Source: a virus. Taken from it: a stretch of 24,503 bases of DNA. Both the position numbers and the translations under genes were made by a program. The notes under the pieces are model-generated. The model was not told the DNA's origin, did not search any database, and saw only the letters and a list, made by a program, of their open reading frames with translations. Positions 5,201 through 17,763 of this stretch are shown here, one piece after another (within the stretch, counting starts at the first letter, position 1; each line of letters begins with the position of its first letter). The stretch lies in the IMG/VR virus record IMGVR_UViG_3300045051_000346, positions 1-24,503 of that record; one strand, given 5' to 3'.

Positions 5201-5688
5201 TCGTCTTCCTCGGTCCTCTTGCCCAAGACCTCCTCGACTTTCGCCAAGAGTTCGGCGTCCGAGTAGGAACTGTCTTGGACGATGTTCTGGTTGACGACAT
5301 TGACATTCCCGGCCTTCTTCAGATTCCCCGCAAGTTCCTCCAGGGTCCTTCCGGCCTTGAGCCGTGTGTCCTCCTTGTCGCTTTCGAGCAGAGCCCTTAG
5401 CTGGGGTCGCCATTCGACAACCATGTAGAGGAGCTCAGTATCAAGCCGGTCCCGGACTCCGGCGAGGACTCGCTTGTCGGTCTGGGCGGCTCGTACTCGG
5501 GCAGGAGAGATGCCGAGTAAAGAGGAGACGGAGGCAGCGGACGGTAAGCCTCGTTCTGCCTTCTCTCGATGGCTGAGGGCGTACCACTCCGTGAGCGCGG
5601 TGAGCCGCTCCTCGGTGAGATTCCCCGACCTAACACCGCTTTCACCTTCCTCGATCTTGACGATCTTGACTTCAGCGACGCTCCTCAC
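5197..5688 (-). CDS. terS: Terminase small subunit, probable
   Basis: This would be the DNA-recognition partner of the large terminase. The protein has 163 residues, a usual size. Residues ~30-70 contain a helix-turn-helix-like stretch (ASVSSLLGISPARVRAAQTD). A long helix (LRALLESDKEDTRLKAGRTLEELAGNLK) could oligomerise, and an acidic tail (KVEEVLGKRTEEDD) may bind the large subunit. The call rests on this architecture and on position directly upstream of terL. The GTG at 5688 sits immediately after AAAGGGAG, a poor spacing, so the real start may be slightly downstream. It overlaps the previous gene by 17 bases. Confidence 0.75.
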   Translation of the reverse strand: MRSVAEVKIVKIEEGESGVRSGNLTEERLTALTEWYALSHREKAERGLPSAASVSSLLGISPARVRAAQTDKRVLAGVRDRLDTELLYMVVEWRPQLRALLESDKEDTRLKAGRTLEELAGNLKKAGNVNVVNQNIVQDSSYSDAELLAKVEEVLGKRTEEDD

Positions 5689-5869
5689 CTCCCTTTAACG
5701 CTCTACGACCAATCTCATCCCGAACCTCGCGCCAATCTCGCCTAGCAAGATCGGATTCTTCGCCAATGGGATTTTCTCGTATGAATAAAACCAGTTGCCT
5801 GTGCGCCATCCTCAGATACTCGTCGGTCAAATAGGCTGGATTGGCAGTTAATAGCGGGGCCTTAGCCAC
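5672..5869 (-). CDS. Hypothetical protein upstream of small terminase (65 aa)
   Basis: GTG start directly follows a very G-rich ribosome site (GGGAGGGGG) and overlaps the preceding gene. The product is charged and mostly helical (DEYLRMAHRQLVLFIREN; ARRDWREVRDEIGRRAL) with no Cys or membrane segment. I recognise no family. Tight overlap with neighbours on both sides supports it as a real gene of the packaging operon. Confidence 0.6.
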   Translation of the reverse strand: MAKAPLLTANPAYLTDEYLRMAHRQLVLFIRENPIGEESDLARRDWREVRDEIGRRALKGGEERR

Positions 5870-6098
5870 TGCCCCCTCCCAGTACGGCCCGTATCATGTA
5901 GTCCCGAGCCACCTTAAACTCCCGGTCCACCCTCTCTGCCCGGTTCATCCTCATCAACGAATCACACATCTGACAGACTGAAAACCCAACCACTACGACC
6001 CTCTTATTGGTAAGATCCCGGTAATGAGTCTTGTGCCGCCTCGTGTCGTCCTCAATAGGTGCCTCGCAAGTGGCGCAGCCGATCAAGGCTTCATCCAC
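5862..6098 (-). CDS. Small zinc-finger protein with two CxxC pairs (78 aa)
   Basis: Two cysteine pairs (CATC near residue 8 and CQMC near 42) with a basic loop between them (RRHKTHYRDLTNKR) indicate a treble-clef or zinc-ribbon fold. The C-terminal half is helical and charged. The GTG start overlaps the end of the upstream gene and the stop overlaps the next. It likely binds nucleic acid; no specific family recognised. Confidence 0.65.
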   Translation of the reverse strand: MDEALIGCATCEAPIEDDTRRHKTHYRDLTNKRVVVVGFSVCQMCDSLMRMNRAERVDREFKVARDYMIRAVLGGGSG

Positions 6099-6391
6099 GG
6101 ACCTAAGAAGCCCGAACTTGTATCAAATAAAGCCCTGCAAATGCCTTCACGCGCGTCATGGGCCGCTACCGCAATCCGGTCCTCAAGTTTGTTAGACTTA
6201 CGCAACTCGGGAAGTTGCGCGATGAACTCCAGTCGACTCGCCCTCTTCTCCGCCTCAACCTTGGCATGGCAGGCGTCGTGCTGAAGATCCGACTCCTCCC
6301 AGCCGTGGTCCCCGTACTCCTCGTCCTCATATATAACCTCATTGCAGACCGAGCAGTACGTCTTGACCGGCTCCCTCACCGAGTCAGCCAC
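6083..6391 (-). CDS. Small protein with a CxxC...HxxxC motif (102 aa)
   Basis: GTG start has GGGAG seven bases upstream. The N-terminal third carries CSVC and HDACH spaced by an acidic stretch (YEDEEYGDHGWEESDLQ), which could bind one zinc. A basic/acidic helix follows (EAEKRASRLEFIAQLPELRK), then a helix with REGICRALFDT. The stop overlaps the next gene's start. It belongs to the string of zinc-type proteins preceding the terminase genes. Function unknown. Confidence 0.62.
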   Translation of the reverse strand: MADSVREPVKTYCSVCNEVIYEDEEYGDHGWEESDLQHDACHAKVEAEKRASRLEFIAQLPELRKSNKLEDRIAVAAHDAREGICRALFDTSSGFLGPWMKP

Positions 6392-6684
6392 CTCGACTCC
6401 CAGTCCGATACCTCCACATCGACCGCCTTCTCCATCTCCTCCAAGTCGGCCTCCCTCTTCGCCCTCAATGCCTCCAGAACCTCCTCAGATGGCCCAGGTG
6501 ACACGATCTTCTCTGGAACGAATACCCGGGCCTGCAAAGCCACAACCTCGCCCTTGAGGTCAGCAAGCGCCTTCCGGAGCTCGTCTATCTGCTCCTTGAA
6601 GGACAGACCTCGGCCAGCCAGTGCACTCACCTCGGCGTCGCACTTGCCTGGCCCTAACCGACTTTCTGAAGGATTTTCTTTCAA
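6376..6684 (-). CDS. Coiled-coil protein with an N-terminal MKEN...LGPGKCD motif (102 aa)
   Basis: TTG start with GTGAGG upstream. The first 16 residues match those of the next gene upstream (6681-6953), including LGPGKCD. After that it is a predicted coiled coil (FKEQIDELRKALADLKGEVVALQARV), a hinge (PEKIVSPGP) and a second charged helix (SEEVLEALRAKREADLEEMEKAV). The shared leader plus a different body suggests partial duplication or domain swapping. No family recognised. Confidence 0.62.
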   Translation of the reverse strand: MKENPSESRLGPGKCDAEVSALAGRGLSFKEQIDELRKALADLKGEVVALQARVFVPEKIVSPGPSEEVLEALRAKREADLEEMEKAVDVEVSDWESRWLTR

Positions 6685-7658: not shown

Positions 7659-7687
7659 TTGACAGGGACCTATCCCTGTGCTACCAT
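7659..7687 (+). promoter_or_regulatory. Rightward sigma70-like promoter of the early operon
   Basis: TTGACA at 7659-7664, a 17-base spacer, and TACCAT at 7682-7687. A transcript starting near 7694 would have a ~48-base leader before the TTG of 7742, with GGAGG at 7728-7732. The spacer is almost filled by the inverted repeat 7662-7679. Confidence 0.7.
7662..7679. promoter_or_regulatory. Palindromic operator inside the promoter
   Basis: ACAGGGA, four bases, TCCCTGT: perfect 7-base arms lying across the -35 end and spacer. Protein bound here would block RNA polymerase, so this is the best candidate operator in the window. The first gene product (7742-8050) is a plausible autoregulator. Confidence 0.65.
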
Positions 7688-8226: not shown

Positions 8227-8255
8227 TTGACATGCGCACGTGACCGGGATATAGT
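8227..8255 (+). promoter_or_regulatory. Second rightward sigma70-like promoter
   Basis: TTGACA at 8227-8232, a 17-base spacer and TATAGT at 8250-8255, nearly consensus. It lies 48 bases before the ATG at 8303. The spacer contains GCGCACGTGAC, part of the GACATGCG(A/C)ACGT element also found at 8054, so it may carry an operator. Confidence 0.78.
8229..8241 (+). repeat. GACATGCG(A/C)ACGT element, copy 2
   Basis: GACATGCGCACGT, overlapping the -35 box of the second promoter. It differs from copy 1 at one position. Confidence 0.5.
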
Positions 8256-9058: not shown

Positions 9059-9246
9059 CCACCTATCACGGAGCGCCCATCTGCCGATGCGGGTCGAGGA
9101 ATAGCAAGGCTATCGGACAGAGCGCACTACTTCGGCAATGCCAGCATTGCGGGCAGACCTATGCATACCGACTCCACGATGGGATTTTGGTCGCCCATGC
9201 GCTAGAGACGGCGCTCGCCCTGGACGAACTGAGGAGGGGAAAGTGA
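9055..9246 (+). CDS. Zinc-ribbon protein (63 aa)
   Basis: ATGA overlap with the previous gene. CRCGSRN and CQHCGQTYAYR, about 18 residues apart, form a classical four-cysteine zinc ribbon as in transcription factors and transposase ends. A helical tail follows (HALETALALDELRRGK). Probably a nucleic-acid binding accessory; no specific family. Confidence 0.7.
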   Translation: MTTYHGAPICRCGSRNSKAIGQSALLRQCQHCGQTYAYRLHDGILVAHALETALALDELRRGK

Positions 9247-9617
9247 AAACGAAGCCCAATTACGCAAAGCGTTCCCGAATCTTGGGAGTGGATACTTCAG
9301 GCGACTACGTGAGAGTCGGTTATATGGACTTGGGCATGCTACATCTCTTGAAGGATGAGGGGTTCCTAGACCTAGACCAAACCCAAAACGACTCTCCCAC
9401 GGTCGCTGAGTTCATTGAATTTTTGGAAAAACATCCAGGCGCTTTCGCGCACGGTTACACCATTGGCTCAGACAGGGATGACGCTAGAGTTTCGCTTGAA
9501 GGCTTGGCCTGCCATGCCAACAAAGTGACGCCAACTATGCTTAAGGATTTTATCACTCTCTGTCGCCACGCCGACGAGTTCAGCATTGAAGACGGCCTGC
9601 GTTCGTGGTGGGACTAG
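9243..9617 (+). CDS. Hypothetical acidic protein (124 aa)
   Basis: GTG start overlaps the end of the zinc-ribbon gene, with GAGGGGAA upstream. The N-terminus is basic (KTKPNYAKRSR), then a mixed alpha/beta body (ILGVDTSGDYVRVGYMDL; FIEFLEKHPGAFAHGYTIG; VTPTMLKDFITLCRHADEF) ending RSWWD. The early ILGVDTSGDYV resembles the first strand of an RNase H-like fold, but the other acidic motifs are not evident, so I do not assign it. Length and composition support a real gene. Confidence 0.65.
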   Translation: MKTKPNYAKRSRILGVDTSGDYVRVGYMDLGMLHLLKDEGFLDLDQTQNDSPTVAEFIEFLEKHPGAFAHGYTIGSDRDDARVSLEGLACHANKVTPTMLKDFITLCRHADEFSIEDGLRSWWD

Positions 9618-14182: not shown

Positions 14183-14346
14183 AGATACAGGTCGAGCGTG
14201 ATGGGAAGTTTCAGCAAGAGATTGACATTCCAGTCATCCCGCGAAAGGGTGATACGGTTTCCTTCGAGAACGTCCGCTACAAGGTGCGGGAGGTAATTTG
14301 GTTCGTTCCGCGGATCACTACCGTCGCGCGGATCATCCTCAGGTGA
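14179..14346 (+). CDS. Small beta-rich protein (55 aa)
   Basis: GTG overlap with the previous gene and GAGGGAA upstream. KIQVERDGKFQQEIDIPVIP, GDTVSFENVRYKVREVIWFV, then ARIILR: alternating strands suggest a small barrel or SH3-like fold. The pattern PxKGDxVxFxNxxYKVxxVxW resembles small phage beta-barrel proteins without assigned function. Confidence 0.6.
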   Translation: MKIQVERDGKFQQEIDIPVIPRKGDTVSFENVRYKVREVIWFVPRITTVARIILR

Positions 14347-14552
14347 CCGCCCCATCCCCCAGCCTGGCCGAACGGATTCGGGACGTGGCGCTAGACCTCG
14401 AAGAAGTATACGCGCTGGTGGAGAAGGCAGAGTCGCTTCGCGCCATCGCCTCCGAACTGGACCAGAAGGCGGAGGAAATGCGCCGCGAGTCGGGCGGGGC
14501 TATTCCGTATATGGACGAGTGGGCCGACTCTCTCGCCAGGAGGAAGGGCTAG
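14343..14552 (+). CDS. Small coiled-coil protein (69 aa)
   Basis: GTG overlap with the previous gene. ERIRDVALDLEEVYALVEKA and ESLRAIASELDQKAEEMRRE form a continuous helix with heptad-like leucines. It is the last gene of the uninterrupted rightward series. Function unknown. Confidence 0.62.
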   Translation: MTAPSPSLAERIRDVALDLEEVYALVEKAESLRAIASELDQKAEEMRRESGGAIPYMDEWADSLARRKG

Positions 14553-14623
14553 GGTGGGAGCTCCTTGTCCAATGGCTCGATCACGTCCGGCAGTTTCCCG
14601 GCGACCGTCTTGTCCTTTACCCC

Positions 14624-14660
14624 TAAAAGGCGAAGGAGCGGCCTTATGAGGACCGCTCCC
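14624..14660 (-). terminator. Leftward intrinsic terminator after the holin-like gene
   Basis: Reading leftward: GGAGCGG, TCCTCATAAGG, CCGCTCC, then TTCGCCTTTT. The outer arms are a perfect 7 bp and CCT/AGG extends the stem past a bulged T. It begins 22 bases after the stop at 14682 and would end late leftward transcripts. On the plus strand no T-run follows, so it should act in one direction. Confidence 0.75.
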
Positions 14661-14681
14661 AGATGAAGCCAGCGCCTTGGT

Positions 14682-14849
14682 TTAATGGCCGCCGTCCTTG
14701 GCCAGCACCAGGCCGATGCCCGCGATGAGGGCCACGATGTCCATAGCCGAAGGGGGCCATGTATGGGTTGAGGCAAAGGAAACGAGGTACTGGGCCACCG
14801 TGATAGCAATGGTCAGGTAGCCCGCGATAGTCGTGTAGGGGTTCTTCAC
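14682..14849 (-). CDS. Holin-like small membrane protein (55 aa)
   Basis: GTG with GGAG five bases upstream. Two hydrophobic segments, IAGYLTIAITVAQYLVSFA and AMDIVALIAGIGLVLAKDGG, are joined by a short polar turn (STHTWPPS), the layout of small two-helix phage membrane proteins. The VALIAGIGLVLAKDGG end is common among proteins annotated as phage holin-like. It lies in the same direction as the lytic transglycosylase and at the end of the late unit. A pinhole or canonical holin role is inferred. Confidence 0.65.
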   Translation of the reverse strand: MKNPYTTIAGYLTIAITVAQYLVSFASTHTWPPSAMDIVALIAGIGLVLAKDGGH

Positions 14850-15106
14850 TTGCTCTCCTTTGGTTGAGGGCGCTGTGGACCGATACGGTATGATTGACCA
14901 AGAACTAGAAGCTCGTACTCTCCTGTTTTTACTCGGACCACCTTCCCGTGTTCGGTATGGTTCAGAGGAATGGGTGGATTGGGCGACTCTCCGGATGCTC
15001 TGGAGGGGGCGCATCCGCAACTTGGGCACCACAACTCCCCAGAGTCATCATCGATCATTGGCACGCCACAGCAGATTGAAAGGGGGACGCTCTTGATCTG
15101 TTCCAA
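14846..15106 (-). CDS. Zinc-ribbon protein (86 aa)
   Basis: TTG with GAGG six bases upstream. ICCGVPMIDDDSG, then WCPSCGC, forms a zinc ribbon; a Pro-rich linker precedes a beta-like part (KVVRVKTGEYELLVLGQSYR). Its stop overlaps the holin-like GTG. Its first 14 bases overlap the start of the oppositely oriented gene 15093-15299, so each gene's ribosome site lies in or beside the other. Confidence 0.6.
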   Translation of the reverse strand: MEQIKSVPLSICCGVPMIDDDSGELWCPSCGCAPSRASGESPNPPIPLNHTEHGKVVRVKTGEYELLVLGQSYRIGPQRPQPKESK

Positions 15107-15299
15107 GTGTGGCCTCGAAGTAGAAAAGGAGTGGGAAGGAGGCTGGAAGAGTACCGAGGACCGGAGGGACTACTTCGCCCACCATCTGTGCCCAAGGGAG
15201 AAGCTCTATATCTGGGCTCGGTGGCATAAGTTGAGATCAAATGCTCGTCTTGTTAACTCGGAAGTTTCCGTAAAGCCGGTCCCAGAGAGCCTCCAATGA
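15093..15299 (+). CDS. Small zinc-finger protein (68 aa)
   Basis: TTG with AGGGGG six bases upstream. ICSKCGLEVEKEW, a charged loop, then FAHHLC gives a CxxC...HxxC-type zinc site. The rest is mixed (IWARWHKLRSNARLV). Upstream in-frame codons to 14970 are a shadow of the minus-strand zinc protein. Its 3' end overlaps the exonuclease gene tail by 63 bases in convergent orientation. Confidence 0.58.
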   Translation: MICSKCGLEVEKEWEGGWKSTEDRRDYFAHHLCPREKLYIWARWHKLRSNARLVNSEVSVKPVPESLQ

Positions 15300-15890
15300 C
15301 TCCACGTCCTCCACGTTATGCTGGAGCACGTAGTCAATGGACGCCTTGTCCCCCGCCTGAGCCTTCATCCATACCGGAGGAGTGAGCCTATGCCCCTTGG
15401 AAGGGATGTCCAGAATATCGCAGGCCACTTCGAGCCGGTTACGATGCAGTTTCAGCTTGCCTCGGACCGAGTAGTACAGGTCCGTGTGGAATACGCTCCC
15501 CATAGGTGGGAAGTCGAGCTTGTGATGCAGGCACCGGGTTCTCAGGAATGGCACGTCGTATCCGGTACCGTAGTATGTCACCAAGCGGTCGAACTCTCCG
15601 AGATCCTCAAGGAACTGCTTGCAGAGGTTCCGGTCAAACCGGTGGGCTCGGATATCCGCCGGGGCTATAGGACGCTTCAGAACCTCACCGCCACGACGTT
15701 TGATGCAGTAGGAGAGCATGTACCCGAATGAAGCGTTGAGGCTCGTGGCCTCGATATCGAGAAAGCCAATGCGTTCGGTATCGTGGGCCTTGGTGTAACA
15801 CATCTGATGGGAGAGGCCGTCATGCCTATGCTGGCAACGGAACCTGAGTCTGGAAACGAGTTCAGCCTTTGAAAGCGACGATGGGTTCAG
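15237..15890 (-). CDS. DEDD-type 3'-5' exonuclease (RNase H-like, YprB-like)
   Basis: FLDIEATSLNASFG holds the first Asp and Glu, VTYYGTGYDVPFLRTRC the second Asp motif, and HNVEDVESLEALWDRL the third. Together they are the three Exo motifs of RNase H-fold exonucleases, close to the YprB-like branch. The ATG at 15803 has no ribosome site and would drop a likely zinc motif just before it (RCQHRHDGLSHQMCY). The frame is open upstream; CTG at 15890-15888, with GGAGG four bases upstream, gives 217 residues and is my preferred start. It could serve ERF-type recombination or DNA or RNA turnover. Confidence 0.87.
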   Translation of the reverse strand: MNPSSLSKAELVSRLRFRCQHRHDGLSHQMCYTKAHDTERIGFLDIEATSLNASFGYMLSYCIKRRGGEVLKRPIAPADIRAHRFDRNLCKQFLEDLGEFDRLVTYYGTGYDVPFLRTRCLHHKLDFPPMGSVFHTDLYYSVRGKLKLHRNRLEVACDILDIPSKGHRLTPPVWMKAQAGDKASIDYVLQHNVEDVESLEALWDRLYGNFRVNKTSI

Positions 15891-16306
15891 CGATCCTCCG
15901 GTGTCGGAGATGTACCTACGAGGCCGCAGCGAACTGGTTTGAGGACGGCCTCTGTGTCTGCTGCCGTGTTGATGATTCGACTGCTGCGCCGTGCAAGTGC
16001 GGCTGCGGGAACAAGGTCCCCAAGGGCAGGAGTTCCTACTTCTCGGACGAGTGCATGCGGAAGAGGAGTCCTATTCCAAGGAAGAAGATTGACGACACGA
16101 GGTCCCGCTATGTCAGGTGGAGAGAGAGGAAGCGGGAGTTAGGGCTCTGCGTCCGCTGCGGCGGCCCCAAGTCGGGACCGAGATTCCAGTGCCAAGGATG
16201 CTTGGACATTGCCCGGCTCAAGGCGAGGGGTCGGCCTAGTCGGGTAAGGAAGCCTCACCCACAGGCCGAAACACAGTCACCGCCACCGTCATGCCCAGCC
16301 CAATGA
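15881..16306 (+). CDS. Multi-zinc-finger protein (141 aa)
   Basis: Starts ATG 15881 or TTG 15869; neither has a strong ribosome site. Successive Cys groups CRRC, CVCC, CKCGCGNK, a DEC, then CVRCGG and CQGC show at least two zinc sites. The middle is basic (SRYVRWRERKRELG) and the tail Pro/Arg-rich. GLCVRCGG...FQCQGCLDIARLKARGRP is a pattern common in phage zinc proteins near HNH-type nucleases, but no His/Asn catalytic set is visible. Its start overlaps the exonuclease start, and its end overlaps the next gene by 71 bases. Confidence 0.65.
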   Translation: MGSAILRCRRCTYEAAANWFEDGLCVCCRVDDSTAAPCKCGCGNKVPKGRSSYFSDECMRKRSPIPRKKIDDTRSRYVRWRERKRELGLCVRCGGPKSGPRFQCQGCLDIARLKARGRPSRVRKPHPQAETQSPPPSCPAQ

Positions 16307-16526
16307 CGCACGTATCGTTCGCGTCTCCGCCGTCCAGTTGGCGCTCTTGAATCAGCTCGATCTTCCCTTCGGCGGGGTCCATCGACATGACCTCGCCGTA
16401 GGTAACGAGATCCACCAGTTTCAGAGACCCAGGCACGAGGGCCGCGTTCTTGTAGGCGGCGTGATCCTTCCAGCGAACAGCAACGAAATCCCCAGGTTGC
16501 ACGGTCAACGGCTTCTTAGCGGCCAA
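16236..16526 (-). CDS. Small beta-rich hypothetical protein (96 aa)
   Basis: I use TTG 16526 because GGAG lies six bases upstream; an earlier in-frame start at 16571 would overlap the RNA ligase. LTVQPGDFVAVRWKDHAAYK, VDLVTYGEVMSMDPAEGKIE and DTCVIGLGMTVAVTVFRP suggest a small barrel. Phage proteins of the type V.W.D....G.V.....D...I.L share this outline. It is antisense to the 3' end of the upstream plus gene. Role unknown. Confidence 0.62.
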   Translation of the reverse strand: MAAKKPLTVQPGDFVAVRWKDHAAYKNAALVPGSLKLVDLVTYGEVMSMDPAEGKIELIQERQLDGGDANDTCVIGLGMTVAVTVFRPVGEASLPD

Positions 16527-16542
16527 GGAGGTCTCCGGGATG
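16524..16542. promoter_or_regulatory. Overlapping back-to-back ribosome binding sites
   Basis: The segment AAGGAGGTCTCC supplies AAGGAGG to the RNA ligase ATG at 16540 and, on the other strand, GGAGACC to the TTG at 16526. Only 13 bases separate the two starts, leaving no room for promoters. Confidence 0.6.
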
Positions 16543-17136
16543 AGGAAGATAGTTAGCCTGTACCAGCGCAATTACGATGGCGACAGACTGGTGAGAGATG
16601 AGGTCGTGCCTGGAGCGGAATGGGTGATTGCTGGGGAAGGCGTGCCAACGCGCAAGTTTGATGGGACATGCTGCATGGTCAAGACGGGAGTCCTCTATAA
16701 GCGATTCGACGCCAAGCAGGGCAAGGAGCCGCCTTACGGATTCGTACCAGCTCAAGACCCAGACCCAGTTACTGGCCACTGGCCCGGATGGATTGAGGTC
16801 GGAAACGGAAACGAAGATAAGTGGTTCCGCGAGGGTTGCGGAAAATCATGGCCGAAGTGCGACGCGCCAGACGGGACATATGAATTAGTCGGCCCCAAGG
16901 TCCAGGGGAATCCGGAAGGTTTCGAGCACCACACGCTAGTTCCGCATGGAAAACATATCCTTGCAGACCTTAATCCGCGTAACTATGAAAACATCAAGCA
17001 TTACCTAGGCTACGGGGATATTGAGGGTATCGTCTGGCACCATCCCGACGGACGCATGGTCAAGATCAAAGCCAAGGACTTCGGCATCAGACGCCGAGCG
17101 GCACAATCTTCTCCGCATACCCAATCGCCTGTTTAG
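16540..17136 (+). CDS. RNA ligase family nucleotidyltransferase (DUF5565-like, 198 aa)
   Basis: ATG eight bases after AAGGAGG. Motif I is KFDGT with the AMP-accepting Lys39 (TRKFDGTCCMVK). ELVGPKVQGNPE (115-126) matches motif IIIa, IEGIVWHHP (161-169) motif IV, and KIKAKDFG (175-182) motif V with both Lys. All ligase motifs are intact, so it should seal nicked or broken RNA using ATP. The small single-domain form resembles phage proteins labelled RNA ligase/DUF5565. No polynucleotide kinase or tRNA-cleaving partner is visible nearby; the tRNA-like element at 12879 is on the same strand. The stop overlaps the transglycosylase gene by 50 bases. Confidence 0.9.
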   Translation: MRKIVSLYQRNYDGDRLVRDEVVPGAEWVIAGEGVPTRKFDGTCCMVKTGVLYKRFDAKQGKEPPYGFVPAQDPDPVTGHWPGWIEVGNGNEDKWFREGCGKSWPKCDAPDGTYELVGPKVQGNPEGFEHHTLVPHGKHILADLNPRNYENIKHYLGYGDIEGIVWHHPDGRMVKIKAKDFGIRRRAAQSSPHTQSPV

Positions 17137-17581
17137 CATCCGGTTTCTTCCCTCGCACGGACGCGGATGGGAAGGTGGCTTTGAAGTGGGGCCAGTCTAG
17201 GGGGGCGTTCTGCGAGGCCAAATCCCGTAGGGCGGCTTTGACGTACCCGAAGCCTGCGTTATAGGAGCACAATGCGAACCGGTAGAGATCATCCTGGGCC
17301 ACGGGCTGGGAACCTACCGTAATCTTGACGTTGGCCAGTTGCTGGGCCAGATACGTCGTGCCCGCTTTCAGGCACTCGTCCGGGTTGAAGGGCTCCATGC
17401 ACCCAAGTTCCTTGGCTGTCTCCGGCATGAGCTGGAGAAGCCCCATCGCACCCGATCCGCTCACAGCACGGGGGTTGTATGCTGATTCCGCGTCTACTTG
17501 CCGCCATACGAGGTCTGGCGGGAGCTCCGCTCTCCAGGCCCAGTAGTCAACTAGGGATCGGAATCGATCGGAGGGCTTCAT
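17087..17581 (-). CDS. Lytic transglycosylase, SLT family (164 aa)
   Basis: It cleaves the glycan strands of peptidoglycan. The catalytic Glu32 sits in WRQVDAESAYNPRAVSGSGA followed by MGLLQLMPETA, the SLT signature, and SYNAGFGYVKAAL is the third motif. ATG 17581 overlaps the previous gene's stop. There is no signal peptide, so it acts either with a holin as endolysin or as a virion-borne enzyme. Adjacency to internal-virion genes and to a holin-like gene allows both. Confidence 0.9.
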   Translation of the reverse strand: MKPSDRFRSLVDYWAWRAELPPDLVWRQVDAESAYNPRAVSGSGAMGLLQLMPETAKELGCMEPFNPDECLKAGTTYLAQQLANVKITVGSQPVAQDDLYRFALCSYNAGFGYVKAALRDLASQNAPLDWPHFKATFPSASVRGKKPDAKQAIGYAEKIVPLGV

Positions 17582-17763
17582 CGATCCAGTTCCCGTTCGA
17601 TAATCCGATCCACCTTGTCCTCGATCCGTTGGAGCCTGGCGTAGATTGCCACAAGGTCCTGTTCCCTTACTTTGAGGCCGATGCCGATGCCAGTGAAGGC
17701 GGCGACCATCGCACTGGAGGCACTTGTTAGGATGTTCCAAAGTGGAGCGTTATCTTGGTTCAG
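17578..17763 (-). CDS. Small membrane/coiled-coil protein, probable CTG start (61 aa)
   Basis: The frame begins with CTG overlapping the previous stop (CTGA) and ends overlapping the transglycosylase ATG. NAPLWNILTSASSAMVAAFT and GIGIGL give one membrane segment; VREQDLVAIYARLQRIEDKVDRIIERELDR is a charged coiled coil. The first in-frame ATG would cut the membrane segment and has no ribosome site. A membrane anchor plus coil next to a lytic enzyme could be a spanin- or holin-type partner, which is inference. Confidence 0.58.
   Translation of the reverse strand: MNQDNAPLWNILTSASSAMVAAFTGIGIGLKVREQDLVAIYARLQRIEDKVDRIIERELDR

Follow-up and report, generated by a model that had tools for sequence, protein, structure and literature searches.

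In noncontiguous operons, opposite-strand protein genes are nested in one block and the mRNAs double as antisense RNAs. Examples are menE-menC-MW1733-ytkD-MW1731 in S. aureus and the tha/ith region of phage 80alpha (PMC11087260, PMC7154746). In 80alpha the opposite-strand transcripts overlap, the tha/ith layout switches expression, and RNase III is not the main mechanism (PMC11087260). Overlaps between divergent genes are strongly under-represented in prokaryotes, which has been explained by the regulatory sequence that must lie upstream of genes (PMC2174442). The noncontiguous operons known in phages each have one nested gene; in the DNA described here, the strands alternate at least three times in a row, and this series is kept in two genomes.

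The stretch of DNA analyzed here (the window, 24,503 nucleotides) is a 24.5 kb virus record of a P22-like podovirus. Membership was assigned from profile matches to both a P22-type portal (PF16510, 4.2e-7; PHROG 156, 6.9e-21) and a large terminase (PHROG 2, 1.8e-19), which lie on the minus strand in the left part of the window. A plus-strand block from ~8.2 to 14.55 kb holds an ERF recombinase and small genes, and a minus-strand block between 24.5 and 14.55 kb holds the virion and lysis genes. The first-pass annotation had proposed that a rightward early unit meets a leftward late unit in the zone between them, and the gene layout bears this out, the names early and late being themselves assigned from that layout. 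The final gene in the plain part of the early block was called at 14343-14552 (plus strand), and the next late gene upstream of the zone, encoding a small membrane/coil protein, at 17578-17709 (minus strand); the latter occupies the same position in the nearest relative, L080. At the early/late border, coding regions overlap by 4 bases in the window, 14 bases in L080 and 98 bases in the relative L153, and in the relative L139 a small late gene (9119-9279) faces, over its whole length, the 3' portion of the final early open reading frame (ORF). Four of the six phages therefore have no room for a terminator between the coding regions at this border.

Nine genes occupy positions 14549-17581, in the strand order -,-,-,+,-,+,-,+,-. 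The alternation had been noted before and was confirmed, with the correction that three minus-strand genes lead the series instead of two. The leading genes encode a small protein A (working label holin2; 14549-14686, minus strand), whose family is conserved in L080, L139 and L153, a small holin-like transmembrane protein (holin1; 14682-14849, minus strand), with homologs in L080, L139, L153 and L233 (64%), and the zinc-ribbon protein zinc1 (14846-15106, minus strand), with homologs in L080 and L153. Small protein A probably starts with the ATT of ATTAA (14682-14686), overlapping the stop of the preceding gene; its relatives start with GTG or ATG. The first nested opposite-strand gene, zinc2 (15093-15299, plus strand), is an ORF with a TTG start that encodes a small Cys-containing protein. 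It is the weakest gene of the zone: its slot and strand are kept by a small Cys gene in L080, with an E-value of 0.33 between the two, too weak to establish homology. An RNase H-like 3'-5' exonuclease follows (15237-15890, minus strand; Pfam RNase_H_2, 1.2e-15; PHROG 403, 4.8e-20), 71% identical to its counterpart in L080 and 66% to that in L139. The second nested gene encodes a multi-zinc protein (15881-16306, plus strand) with homologs in L080 (pairwise E-value 1e-6) and L153. Four Cys residues are invariant across these homologs, and the gene always faces the one for a small beta-rich protein, the barrel (16236-16526, minus strand; TTG start), which also has homologs in L080 and L153. A structure model of the barrel indicated only that it is beta-rich, at low confidence (mean pLDDT 56). 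The third nested gene (16540-17136, plus strand) encodes a predicted member of an RNA ligase family, matching PHROG 14301 over its full length (profile positions 1-186; 1.4e-79) and RLIG1 in Pfam (3.5e-11), with the KxDG nucleotidyl-transfer motif present as RKFDG. The first late-strand gene of the zone is an SLT transglycosylase (17087-17581, minus strand; Pfam SLT, 6.8e-19; PHROG 669 endolysin, 3.4e-25), 53% identical to that of L080 and 43% to that of L139.

Convergent gene ends overlap by 63 (15237-15299), 71 (16236-16306) and 50 bases (17087-17136). Divergent starts overlap by 14 bases (15093-15106) and, provided that the exonuclease starts at CTG, by 10 bases (15881-15890), or are separated by a 13-base gap (16527-16539). 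All of these values agree exactly with those reported earlier. The CTG start (15888-15890) is probable and is backed by N-terminal alignment with the relatives. The exonuclease start is seemingly CTG in the window, ACG in L139 (around 7911) and ATG in L080, and a strong Shine-Dalgarno-like sequence stands just before the CTG of the window and the ACG of L139. The first in-frame ATG, GTG or TTG of the L139 gene comes only after the DIE motif.

Could the plus-strand ORFs be chance open frames opposite real genes? Codon usage alone would leave room for such an annotation artefact, since its signal is weak in zinc2 and negative in multi-zinc; it also gave no support for zinc1 on the minus strand. 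We accepted the minus-strand genes and the ligase on Pfam or PHROG matches or on homologs in relatives. For the ligase, the strength of its family match refutes the chance-ORF reading, as does, for multi-zinc, the retention of the Cys pattern in L080 and L153. Moreover, the plus-strand ORFs lie mostly between the minus-strand genes and not opposite them. We regard an artefact as very improbable.

To place the zone among other phage loci, we used a comparison set of 150 loci. As the first-pass annotation had assumed, phage genes are normally co-directional: strand switches occurred at 6.7% of junctions, pairs overlapping by at least 50 bases made up 1.7% of convergent pairs and those at most 13 bases apart 7% of divergent pairs, in what is a rough comparison made with a simple home-made codon-usage gene caller on loci collected via the ligase, exonuclease and transglycosylase, that is, on a nonrandom sample. 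The zone has 6 switches at 8 junctions, which corresponds to P ~2e-6 if junctions are naively treated as independent. One of the 150 loci also has 6 switches, mostly with wide gaps. Since three genes of the window (multi-zinc, zinc1 and zinc2) escape the caller, such zones are underestimated in this set. The interleaved zone is real, its arrangement is conserved, and it is rare among the loci examined.

Conservation of the interleaving was seen most fully in L080, a 40,084-base contig whose tail protein is 57% identical to that of the window; alternating strands were retained in other relatives as well. In the orientation of the window, L080 has the early block, zinc1 (minus), a zinc2-like gene (plus), the exonuclease (minus), two small proteins (minus), multi-zinc (plus), the barrel (minus), membrane ORFs (plus) and the transglycosylase (minus). 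Compared with the window, the small-protein pair stands elsewhere and tiny membrane ORFs take the place of the ligase, with every strand kept. Proteins in and around the zone are about 30-70% identical between the two phages. Convergent overlaps in L080 measure 68, 32 and 21 bases, and divergent starts either share a CATG, as they do in L153 also, or abut. The called late genes of L080 lie on one strand all round the contig and the called early genes on the other, and among called genes nested opposite-strand genes were seen only in the boundary zone. The portal gene spans the contig ends, which nearly repeat ~300 bases of it with few differences (start of L244, end of L245), as expected for a circularly permuted genome assembled with variants. 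The genome is therefore probably complete.

Simpler arrangements were found in the other relatives. L153 and the near-identical L154 read zinc1 (minus), phosphoesterase (minus), multi-zinc (plus), barrel (minus) and transglycosylase (minus). The exonuclease slot of L153 holds a metallophosphoesterase-like gene, with a Pfam match just under the cut-off, and the multi-zinc ATG shares a CATG with the start of this gene. L153 and L154 thus retain one nested opposite-strand gene. L139 does likewise, having a different plus-strand membrane gene between holin1 (minus) and the exonuclease (minus). L151 and L233 have plain convergent boundaries, which is compatible with an origin of the interleaving through insertions into such a boundary. 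Where the early block of L233 ends (reverse complement, ~5480-5900), we noticed a plus-strand ORF resembling a D-Ala-D-Ala-type peptidase, judged from a motif by eye, which faces small late proteins. Multi-zinc and the barrel co-occur in three lineages and neither was seen in the other three; in this small sample, the pattern suggests that these two convergent genes move together. Interleaved phages are few, at four lineages including the window. A search with the 790-residue tail protein returned only the L080 contig, one with the small-protein family a single new contig (L233), and one with the L153 phosphoesterase only the L153 and L154 contigs. Searching a prokaryote genome collection with the exonuclease gave two remote matches only. 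Neither the tail protein nor multi-zinc had a homolog among the named phages, and the phage collection held no close named phage to the window.

Given that two relatives lack interleaving, the zone might result from pure compaction, in which the boundary tolerates insertions, overlaps grow by loss of stop codons, and antisense pairing has no useful effect. The overlaps themselves agree with this account. If they were under dual-coding selection, third-position identity should be raised, as had been proposed for checking at synonymous sites; it was not raised in the exonuclease and transglycosylase overlaps (21 and 17 codons, a weak test), and we rejected such selection. The tail of the ligase that extends beyond its family profile falls within the overlap. 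In L153 (reverse complement, 5943-6527), a stop seems to have been lost from the barrel gene, which continues for 368 bases over the multi-zinc gene on the other strand. The overlap sequences thus look incidental, in that the arrangement is conserved and the overlap sequence is not. However, compaction must also account for the strand order shared by the window and L080 despite the moved small-protein pair and the replaced ligase, and it must yield divergent overlaps as well, the class that is strongly under-represented in prokaryotes (PMC2174442). We consider compaction possible and less likely than not. It denies only a silencing role and can coexist with the anatomy of read-through.

A link between RNA duplexes in the zone and the RNA ligase, also suggested in the first-pass annotation, found no support. 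L080 is interleaved with no ligase in the corresponding slot, and among 79 ligase loci both neighbors were on the ligase strand in 55 of the 61 that could be scored. The ligase thus seems to be a passenger occupying a single slot, and we rejected a ligase-centered function as the cause of the interleaving. No ligase was found in five relatives, a weak negative since no control gave a signal.

We then considered how the zone might be transcribed. The early block is headed by a strong sigma-70-like promoter match, TTGACA-17-TATAGT (8227-8255, plus strand; 11 of 12 consensus positions), and that of L080 by a promoter-like site, likewise with 11 of 12. A further promoter-like site at 7659-7687 contains the inverted repeat ACAGGGATAGGTCCCTGT, which may be a repressor operator close to the divergent control region. 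A scan of the window from 13 to 24.5 kb, blind to promoters outside the sigma-70 consensus and to Rho-dependent termination, gave no sigma-70-like site, where shuffled sequence led us to expect 3.8, and terminator-like sites at chance level (9 versus 8.6 expected). Given these blind spots, every one of the nested genes could be transcribed from a promoter of its own that lies within the neighboring gene. Since the divergent starts are tight or overlapping, there is little room for dedicated promoters, and transcripts very likely overlap.

These results bear on whether the zone is a noncontiguous operon in the strict sense, with the late genes forming one operon and the nested plus-strand genes being moron-like, with promoters of their own and reciprocal repression. 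The layout fits the review definition (PMC7154746) and the 80alpha example (PMC11087260), and the nested genes vary between relatives, as morons do. Yet the zone shows no sigma-70-like promoter, the overlapping or abutting starts would force any promoter into the opposite gene, and the nested genes lie on the strand of the early block, which makes an extra promoter unnecessary. We therefore judge the strict form unlikely.

The account that we favor is that the zone is probably a read-through boundary, the place where two long transcription units run into each other. The early unit, directed rightward, would start at promoters near 7.7-8.3 kb, and the leftward late unit, running around the circle, would include the genes for packaging, virion and lysis. 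Since there is no recognizable stop signal at the meeting point, mutual read-through is expected, and each unit would continue through the last genes of the other. Both strands would then be transcribed in the zone, so genes on either strand could be expressed, and small cassettes such as the multi-zinc/barrel convergent pair would have been gained, lost and shuffled with their strand kept. The plus-strand genes (zinc proteins, ligase) would be made early and the minus-strand genes (exonuclease, lysis proteins) late. Each block's RNA is probably antisense to that of the other, across ~2.6 kb. Collision of RNA polymerases together with duplex formation would favor the stronger unit, so that lysis genes would be damped early and nested genes late. 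Such antisense interference is likely a consequence of read-through, and that a silencing role has been selected inside the boundary seems to us rather unlikely. A fully selected timer would be a zipper of alternating early and late genes at the site where two genome-scale transcripts collide. Early read-through would restrain the lysis proteins, and the late transcript, on gaining the upper hand, would end that phase and shut off the nested early genes. We hold such a timer to be improbable. Together with the simpler stages and plain boundaries of the other relatives, the zone forms a natural series, suited to asking if the timing of lysis is set by antisense collision or if such points merely collect genes on both strands.

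With its P22-type portal, large terminase, and early and late blocks on opposite strands, the window has a P22-like layout, and none of the papers open to our searches described an interleaved boundary for P22-like podoviruses. Like the noncontiguous operons, the window and L080 have opposite-strand protein genes nested within one block. In contrast to those operons, the zone has three nested genes in alternation with single late genes, and coding ends overlap. Nor do the nested genes have a visible promoter of their own, and the site is a probable early/late collision point instead of the lysogeny operon. Like an excludon, the zone joins convergent units with no visible terminator between them (class (b) in figure 3 of PMC7154746), whereas its predicted overlap covers about nine genes in alternating order. 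Opposite-strand overlapping genes expressed at different stages have been described in phage Fc02, where olg1 and olg2 lie opposite gene 10 (PMC9936078). The Fc02 overlap is extensive and sits in a regulatory region, whereas most genes of the zone stand next to one another, with overlap at the ends. Our verdict from these comparisons is that the zone would best be regarded as a multi-gene variant of the noncontiguous operon and excludon idea, placed at a probable early/late collision point.
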